From: Liolophura sinensis
Taxonomy: Eukaryota > Mollusca > Polyplacophora > Chitonida > Chitonidae
Assembly: GCF_032854445.1 (NCBI RefSeq)
Contig: NC_088300.1
Span: 78,173,966-78,237,965 of the forward strand
DNA length: 64,000 nucleotides
Direction of reading: 5' to 3'
A model generated the notes under the pieces. It did no database searches and was not told where the DNA came from. It worked only from the letters and a program-made list of their open reading frames with translations. The translations under genes and the position numbers were made by a program. This document shows positions 58,201 through 64,000 of the stretch, piece after piece (the first letter of the stretch is position 1; every line of letters starts with the position of its first letter).

Positions 58201-61200
58201 TTACAGCAGAACATTGTAGCAGCTCACTGGTTGTTGTTGCAGGTGTTGATCTTTGCTGAGAAGAAGCAGGATGTTGATGCTATTCATGAGTATTTACTGC
58301 TGAAAGGCGTGGAGGCAGTGGCCATCCATGGTGGGAAAGGTGGGTGTCTTTGCTTGTCCTGTGTCAGAAAAATGCTAGTAAAATTCATTCAGTGACATAT
58401 GTCAGGGTACCAGTGTTTACAGTACAGCTGGATCCGAACCATCAATCCTACACCCATTGTGGCCGGAGGATACGTCGACGGTGGGCCGATGGTCAGCGTA
58501 AGATATGCTGACCTTGTACCTTACCGTACCGTCGTAAGGGACCCTCAGCCTACCATCCGTGACCGTCGGCCCATTATGTACATGTACACGTGAACACATG
58601 CGATGTAGGCCCCAGGCCTATACATGTACATACATGTACACGTGAACACATGCGATGTAGGCCCCAGGCCTAGACATACATGTACACGTGAACACGTGCG
58701 ATGTAGGCCCCAGGCCCCTTCCTACACCATTGAATGGTTGGAAGTGTGTTTAGACAATTAGGTCTTCTAAATAGTTTGATTGATAGTTACATTCTTTTAA
58801 CTGCTTCCAGAAATCCATTATAGAGAATTGAGTAGCACCAGGCAGTTTGTATTTTCTTTGCTGATTTAATAATTTTCTGTGCAAACTTGCATGTTTGAAG
58901 GCTTCAAAGATTGCTGAAATTCTGAATGTGGTAAAAGATATTAGTGCAGTAAGTTAGTAGTTGTAAACTGTTGTGACAGCTTGTACCCATCTAAGGTTGC
59001 GGAATGGGCATCCATTGATTTATTTATTTTATTTATTTATTTATTTGATTAGTGTTTTACGCCGTACTCAAGAATATTTCACTTATACGACGGCGGCCAG
59101 CATTATGGTGGGTGGAATCCGGGCACAGCCCGTGGGAAACCCACGACCATCGGCAGGTTGCTGGAAGTCCTTCCCACTTACGGCCGGAGAGGAAGCCAGC
59201 ATGAGCTGGACTTGAACTGACAGCGACCGCATTGGTGAGAGGCCCCTGGGTCATTACACTGCGCTAGGGCGTTAACCGACTGAGCCACGGAGGCCCCTGG
59301 CATCCATTGATCACACAGATTTAATGTGGGATTCACACCAATCAACATGCTTAATTAAATAAAAACCTTAATCAGAAGGGCTTTGTAGAGTGTGTTGCCA
59401 TTTGTCTTGCTCATTGGATAGAGAACTATTTAAAATGGGAGTTTGTTGTGTGTTTGAAGATCAAGAAGAGAGATCAAGGGGTGTAGAACAGTTCCGGGCT
59501 AAGGAGAAGGACGTCCTGGTGGCCACCGATGTGGCATCTAAGGGCCTGGATTTTCCAGACATTCAACATGTGATCAACTATGACATGCCAGATGACATAG
59601 AGAATTATGGTGAGTACTAAGACATGCCAGATGAGAGAGAATTATGGTGAGTACTATGACATTCCAGATGACATAGAGATTTATGGTGAGTACTACGACA
59701 TGCCAGATGAGAGAGAGAATTATGGTGAGTGCTATGATATGTCAGATGACATAGAGAATTATGGTGAGTACTACGACATGCCAGATGACATAGAGAATTA
59801 TGGTGAGTGCTATGACATGCCAGATGAGAGAGAGAATTATGGTGAGTACTATGACAGGCCAGATGAGAGAAAGAATTATGGTGAGTACTACGACATGCCA
59901 GATGAGAGAGACAATTATGGTGAGTTCTATGACATGCTAGATGACATAGAGAATTATGGTGAGTACTATGACATGCCAGATGAGAGAGACAATTATGGTG
60001 AGTTCCATGACATGCCAGATGACATAGAGAATTATGGTGAGTACTATGACATGCCAGATGAGGGAGACAATTATGGTGACTTCTATGACATGCCAGATGA
60101 CATAGAGAATTATGGTGAGTACTATGACATTCCAGATGACATAGAGAATGATGGTGAGTACTATGACATGCCAGATGAGAGAGACAATTATTGTGAGTTC
60201 TATGACATGCCAGATGACATAGAGAATTATGGTGAGTACTATGACATTCCAGATGACATAGAGAATGATGGTGAGTTCTATGACATGCCAGATGACATAG
60301 AGAATTATGGTGAGTACTATGACAGGCCAGATAAGATAGAGAATTATGGTCAGTACTACGACATGCCAGATGAGAGAGAGAATTATGGTGAGTGCTATGA
60401 CATGTCAGATAACATAGAGAATTATGGTCAGTACTGTGGCGATTTTGCTAGAGACAGTATATAATTTTCTGCCTTGTCCATAACGTAGACACAGGTTTTA
60501 CCGGTAGAATGTAATTTTTATGGGTTAGGACATATCCTTAAATTAAATTAGAATTTTTGTGGAATATTTTGAAATATATATATATTTTTTTTTGTAACAT
60601 ATAGAGACAGGATATTTTGTGGACTCATGAGAGCAAGTTGTTTTTGGCGCCTTAATATAACTTTTGAAGGACACAGTTTCCGTGGACCCCTGTCATTTCC
60701 AACGTAAGAATTTTAACACTTGATGACTTAATTAGAACACCATATTTCACGTATAATACACTGACATGTTGAAGGAGTTTCTCTCCAAGCTTGGTGATCA
60801 GATATTGTTTGACTAGGTTGCAAACAACAGTTTTTTTTAGCGACCTTAAGCTTGGCGAAACATCCGCCATTGTTAATATTTTGAAGTGACAAATTCGAGT
60901 AGAGTTTCCATTACTTTTGGACATATTCTTGCTGTAACAAACCACGTACGGCATCTTTCCAGTTAAAACAACATTAGTACTCACTGACTGTGGCATGATT
61001 TTGGCATAAAACGTCCTTTGTACCAAGTTTAAGACACTAAATCATTTTTTTTTTTGGTGGTTGTTGTTGTTGCTTCGCCGCGCACGATCGTCGTTCACGG
61101 TGAACTGCCGCTAGACGAGGTTGTCTACTTTACGACATCCTTTAGTGTTAAACTCATATTGAAGAGTTTCAAAAGGGGCATTAACTTGTATTTGCGAAAG

Positions 61201-64000: not shown

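Follow-up and report, generated by a model that had tools for sequence, protein, structure and literature searches.

The human IFI6 (G1P3) gene contains a minisatellite whose repeat unit is about 12 bp long; the array starts at the end of an exon, and the donor of that exon is itself part of the array. According to the title of Turri et al. (1995), cited in PMC4526556, PMC3618361 and PMC2572611, this minisatellite 'provides multiple splice donor sites', and the available part of PMC4526556 describes two downstream repeat units that act as splice donor sites. In the potato RdRp gene, one tandem duplication across intron 1 and exon 2 gave rise to a new intron (available part of PMC4974935), and in DOK7 intron 4 two competing 5′ splice sites of unlike strength lie 11 nt apart (available part of PMC5585400). 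For a splice-site array in DDX41, titles and the beginnings of abstracts yielded no description, which is weak evidence of absence because subscription papers are thinly covered.

An array that invites comparison with these systems occupies the end of the window, by which we mean the whole stretch of DNA analysed (64,000 nucleotides, positions 1–64000). Like the IFI6 minisatellite, as far as the available text describes it, the DDX41 array consists of tandem units with donor-like sequence: GT is kept at 59 of 61 unit positions, GTRAGT at 54 and G/GTRAGT at 50 (the slash marks the exon–intron boundary). The exon end at 59609 falls inside the first unit, another feature shared with IFI6. Unlike IFI6, the unit measures 39 bp, is present in at least 60 copies and derives from the exon of a conserved helicase. 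Further, downstream donors of IFI6 give different protein isoforms (available part of PMC4526556), whereas a TAA behind the true DDX41 donor permits only truncation; that isoform production counts as a defining feature of the IFI6 type is our own choice. On this comparison the DDX41 array would belong with the IFI6-type minisatellites and would be distinct among them in its unit, its copy number, its conserved exon and its stop. The first-pass annotation was not aware of any published minisatellite derived from a constitutive donor of a spliceosome-linked helicase; for the general kind this absence of precedent does not hold, since the IFI6 minisatellite gives several splice donors.

The likeness to potato RdRp, within the available description of that gene, lies in a duplicated segment that crosses an intron–exon boundary and multiplies splice signals; unlike the potato case, in DDX41 it is the donor side that is repeated, ~60 times, and a new intron is not evident. 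As in DOK7 intron 4, several donors face one acceptor and a wrong choice would lead to a truncated protein, but about 60 near-identical donors in DDX41 stand against the two unlike sites given for DOK7 in the text available.

The host gene had been named as DDX41 from the sequence, and this identity is well founded. Between 43969 and 59609, ten coding exons bounded by GT donors and AG acceptors could be assigned (Table 1), and the joined protein of 505 residues scores 830.9 bits against the 622-aa human DDX41 chain 8c6j, with query residues 10–505 aligned to residues 25–516; the next helicase family reaches 255.5 bits with the same protein. The Pfam domains DEAD and Helicase_C are both present. 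One exon start, 48981, was chosen by hand (the script gave 48982) and keeps the DDX41 frame. The exon that served as the source of the repeat is bordered by an acceptor reading gtttgaag/AT and a donor reading ATTATG/gtgagtac, and its 50 residues correspond to residues 467–516 of 8c6j (E 1.6e-20) and also match chain 2p6n (E 3.9e-21). It had been called exon 11; it is the tenth exon placed, and is number 11 provided that a single coding exon precedes the first one placed. The C-terminal part of DDX41 comprises motif VI and a zinc knuckle. No HRxGR-, RTGR- or TGRS-like string of motif VI occurs in the three plus-strand frames of 59610–64000, and the exons that follow the array presumably lie beyond 64000.

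Table 1. Positions in the window of the DDX41 exons, the array and the features within it
Feature	Position	Strand	Basis
Upstream DDX41 exons, first five	43969–44061, 45708–45879, 47194–47329, 48981–49190, 51253–51406	+	joined translation compared with 8c6j
Upstream DDX41 exons, next four	51706–51842, 55255–55417, 56524–56727, 58243–58339	+	joined translation compared with 8c6j
DDX41 coding exon, source of the repeat, 150 nt, about exon 11	59460–59609	+	splice signals, protein match
Exon copy, carrying the true donor (exon part up to 59609, GT at 59610–59611)	59577–59617	+	
TAA stop in the DDX41 frame	59618–59620	+	read-through translation ...DDIENYGEY-stop
Array block 1, another 21 units (20 of 39 bp and a single 37-bp unit)	59618–60434	+	TRF, anchor counts
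Transposon-like insertion, about 2.07 kb, edges approximate	60436–62502	+	inverted repeat, flanks
Array block 2, 38 complete units plus a 19-bp partial one	62503–64000	+	TRF, anchor counts

As the first-pass annotation proposed, the 39-bp unit joins an exon end to an intron start: it comprises the last ~31–33 bases of the exon and the first 6–8 bases of the intron, GTGAGT(AC). Its estimate of about 60 tandem copies also agrees with anchor counting, by which block 1 has 22 unit positions, the exon copy being the first, and block 2 has 39. These 61 positions comprise 60 full units, the exon copy counted, and a 19-bp partial unit in block 2. TRF describes a 39-bp array at 59577–60435 (22.1 copies, 87% matches) and another at 62599–64000 (36.3 copies, 90% matches), with further short rows from 62503. 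The array proper begins at 59577–59579, not at 59572 as previously placed, and it does leave the window: units continue to the last base, 64000, so that 60 is a minimum. Full units are 39 bp long in 52 of 60 cases and 37 bp long in eight. Two subtypes that differ at two bases were distinguished, type A (GACATAG, 20 units with the exon copy included) and type B (GAGAGAG, 37 units); three of the 60 fit neither rule. On the plus strand, GTRAGT occurs 22.9 times per kb across the two blocks against 0.72 times per kb in 1–59571, and the splice-site array is genuine, far above chance. Long tandem arrays are prone to error, this one is known from assembled sequence alone, and an assembler might have inflated one or a few real units. 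Such an artefact is very improbable in view of the 41 distinct kinds of variant among the 59 full units other than the exon copy, of which just five are identical to that copy, and of a 2-kb insertion with duplicated flanks inside the array.

This insertion, already reported, separates the two blocks. Its ends, GTGGCGATTT and AAATCGCTAC, form imperfect terminal inverted repeats with AGTACT on either side, and the inverted repeat designated I16 (60430–60445 and 62493–62508, the flanking AGTACT included) is 94% complementary. Because the phase of the array carries on across the insertion, the array seems to be the older of the two, and the insertion looks like a later transposon arrival. An AATAAA at 62207 and an ATTAAA at 60542 lie within it, and neither occurs within the array blocks. 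This distribution is relevant to telescripting, in which U1 suppresses premature cleavage and polyadenylation: the units might serve, unspliced, as U1 sites that protect a long intron in this way, and the retention of G/GTRAGT at 50 of 61 unit positions would suit such a role. However, the array seems to predate the insertion that holds the two hexamers, and AATAAA and ATTAAA are also found in intron 10 (59354–59363), where there is no such TRF array, so that we hold a protective function to be quite doubtful.

The units bear on how the array arose. The 20 units of type A, with the exon copy counted, have a consensus that differs from that copy at no letter, five of the 59 other full units are identical to the copy, and the exonic part of the unit is conserved protein sequence; the exon is therefore the founder of the array, and the proposed origin from an exon–intron junction stands. 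Further, ACTA occurs at 59577–59580 and at 59616–59619, exactly 39 bp apart, once in the exon and once just past the donor, which would be the simplest seed. Slippage between these two repeats may have produced the first tandem duplication of the DDX41 junction, and the duplicated junction would then have expanded as a minisatellite, presumably neutrally, to at least 60 units. The reading we favour, with a probability of roughly 0.6, is that the array is a neutral by-product of junction slippage and expansion, that splicing takes place at the first donor, and that the array is mostly tolerated. Such a case would illustrate the birth of a minisatellite at an exon–intron junction, with the splice signals carried along.

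What the use of another copy would do to the transcript depends on a stop codon. A TAA in the DDX41 frame stands 8 nt into the intron and is included in every transcript that passes over the first donor. Because this stop follows the true donor, splicing from a donor further on would end DDX41 at ...ENYGEY, a point which presumably precedes helicase motif VI; therefore only the first donor is productive, and downstream use cannot add repeat peptides to full DDX41. The TAA, which did not figure in the first-pass annotation, is thus predicted to make each downstream donor non-productive for the full-length protein. The expected effect of downstream donor use would be loss of product, not isoform variety, and the transcripts of truncated form are probably a target of NMD.

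The same stop contradicts, for the DDX41 frame, the idea of a longer exon whose 39-bp units, of 13 codons each, are translated into a repeat domain. Such a domain could be suspected from the 39-bp length of 52 of the 60 full units and from a stop-free frame of 287 codons across block 1, but the antisense strand is likewise stop-free (276 codons) and the eight 37-bp units shift the frame. Further, the distinct exon-frame substitutions among ungapped units number 4 synonymous, 32 non-synonymous and 0 stop, where 6.5, 27.7 and 1.8 are expected for the same substitutions, a count that omits the 37-bp units, among them the one bearing the TAA. Missing stops aside, which are few in expectation, there is no sign of coding constraint. 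On the grounds of the in-frame stop, the 37-bp units and the lack of constraint, translation of the repeat was rejected and can hardly be right.

If the array is the neutral by-product that we favour, the first donor would probably be used most of the time, by exon definition, and the array would leave with the intron. This preference is expected because all units start downstream of the exon's acceptor and no acceptor-like pyrimidine tract is seen in the unit; the unit consensus, inspected by eye, shows no polypyrimidine tract, which is also relevant to intron gain, as this needs both a donor and an acceptor. Use of another copy would retain the TAA and yield a truncated DDX41, probably with NMD. 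The array would be mostly tolerated, with splicing noise as a possible small cost. The RNA folding of 59540–59740 is ordinary (z −0.63). It should be noted that, where two donors compete, SRSF1 can promote the intron-proximal site and hnRNP A1 the distal site (available part of PMC5585400), and donor choice of this kind may count against the first-donor preference that we assume. The array would pit exon definition against intron-proximal preference within one gene, and its ~60 near-identical donors, the majority of which match the first in strength while the first alone is productive, would amount to a natural titration of 5′ splice site choice.

With the energy of pairing to the 5′ end of U1 as a proxy for donor strength, in place of a trained splice predictor, 36 of the 60 full units reach −10.6 kcal/mol, the true donor included, which is thereby equalled by 35 of the 59 others. 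Within 0.3 of this value lie 47 of the 60, and the weakest unit has −4.0. In about 1–59500, only five of 3,696 plus-strand GTs are as strong, and among the ten DDX41 donors the true donor ranks second to that of exon 58243–58339 (−11.8). The claim that every unit brings a good donor is therefore upheld in part: 50 of 61 unit positions have G/GTRAGT and the rest do not, though GT is present at 59; ATG/ATGAGT is the sequence of the final full unit before the window ends.

That the array competes for U1, and may slow, vary or buffer splicing of this intron, was a suggestion of the first-pass annotation. By competing for U1, the array might divert transcripts to the stop-containing forms into which downstream use always runs, and thereby set or autoregulate the level of DDX41, with array length as the tuning element. 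The 35 units whose pairing with U1 equals that of the true donor speak for such competition, as do the nine donor columns, in which, once the exon copy is removed, 11 unit cells deviate, the smallest number among 39 circular windows. However, the conservation signal is not significant. A column permutation on deviating units, with the two subtype columns left out, gives p 0.074; if the kinds of variant in each column are counted instead, the donor ranks within the 11 lowest of the 39 windows (permutation p 0.42). None of eight donor variants is present in four or more units, against 11 of 33 elsewhere with subtype variants included (p 0.083), and cut-offs of 2, 3 and 5 for sharing give p 0.25, 0.23 and 0.16; the permutation and sharing tests are rough, as units share ancestry. 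Singleton variants are not rarer in the donor (0.67 per column) than elsewhere (0.53). We take donor conservation to be consistent with neutrality, though it gives a weak hint that selection keeps the donors. Further, other DDX41 introns hold arrays that are not donor-derived. Regulation by the array is possible, and we consider this form of it unlikely. The stronger version, a rheostat tunable in length, in which U1 binding by ~60 near-equal decoy donors would yield truncated, decaying transcripts, the helicase, which is associated with the spliceosome, would control itself and the donors would be under selection, seems to us more doubtful still. For the neutral reading, it should be added that many equally strong donors beside the exon of a conserved gene might be costly, and that neutrality by itself may not account for the survival of the array.

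The origin of this array can be compared with that of its neighbours. Five other tandem units in DDX41 introns (TRF rows 46069, 49473, 52060, 53064 and 58579) were compared by alignment with the ten exons, each exon extended by flanks of 30 bases, and four of the five stayed below the 95% shuffle limit. The fifth array, 49473–51241, abuts the acceptor of exon 51253 and scored 29 (95% limit 22, shuffle maximum 35), but it was rejected as exon-derived, the match lying on intronic 51225–51241, its own last copy. Thus, none of the five tested units matches an exon; the tested arrays include 46069–46507 and 52060–52770, and not 46669–47131 or 54594–54863. As DDX41 introns hold these other arrays without an exon match, minisatellite growth is common here.

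Several other features of the window were recorded. With 65 TRF rows, many of which overlap and describe one and the same array, it is rich in minisatellites. A 44-bp array of about 40 copies (49473–51252) fills most of the DDX41 intron 49191–51252 and stops 11 bases before the exon. By eye, a 70-bp array at 28876–29911 starts right behind an acceptor-like tract (tttttggcacag), and its units contain GGTGAGAT and strings like GATGGTGAGAT; no exon was shown there, and it was set aside as a further junction-derived case, the neighbouring open frame with an IRS/PTB domain being on the minus strand. This frame (26322–27935, IRS-type PTB domain in Pfam) and an open frame with a C3HC4 RING finger (2931–3182, minus strand, Pfam) suggest two putative neighbouring genes. 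Open frames on the plus strand at 9721–14332 look by eye like a gag-pol retroelement, judged by their motifs. Finally, a dispersed repeat was seen by eye in and around the DDX41 introns, at 58967–59215 (plus strand) and at 43412–43675 and 52941–53063 (minus strand), with variants at 24540–24782, 46550–46789 and 47436–47558 (minus strand).
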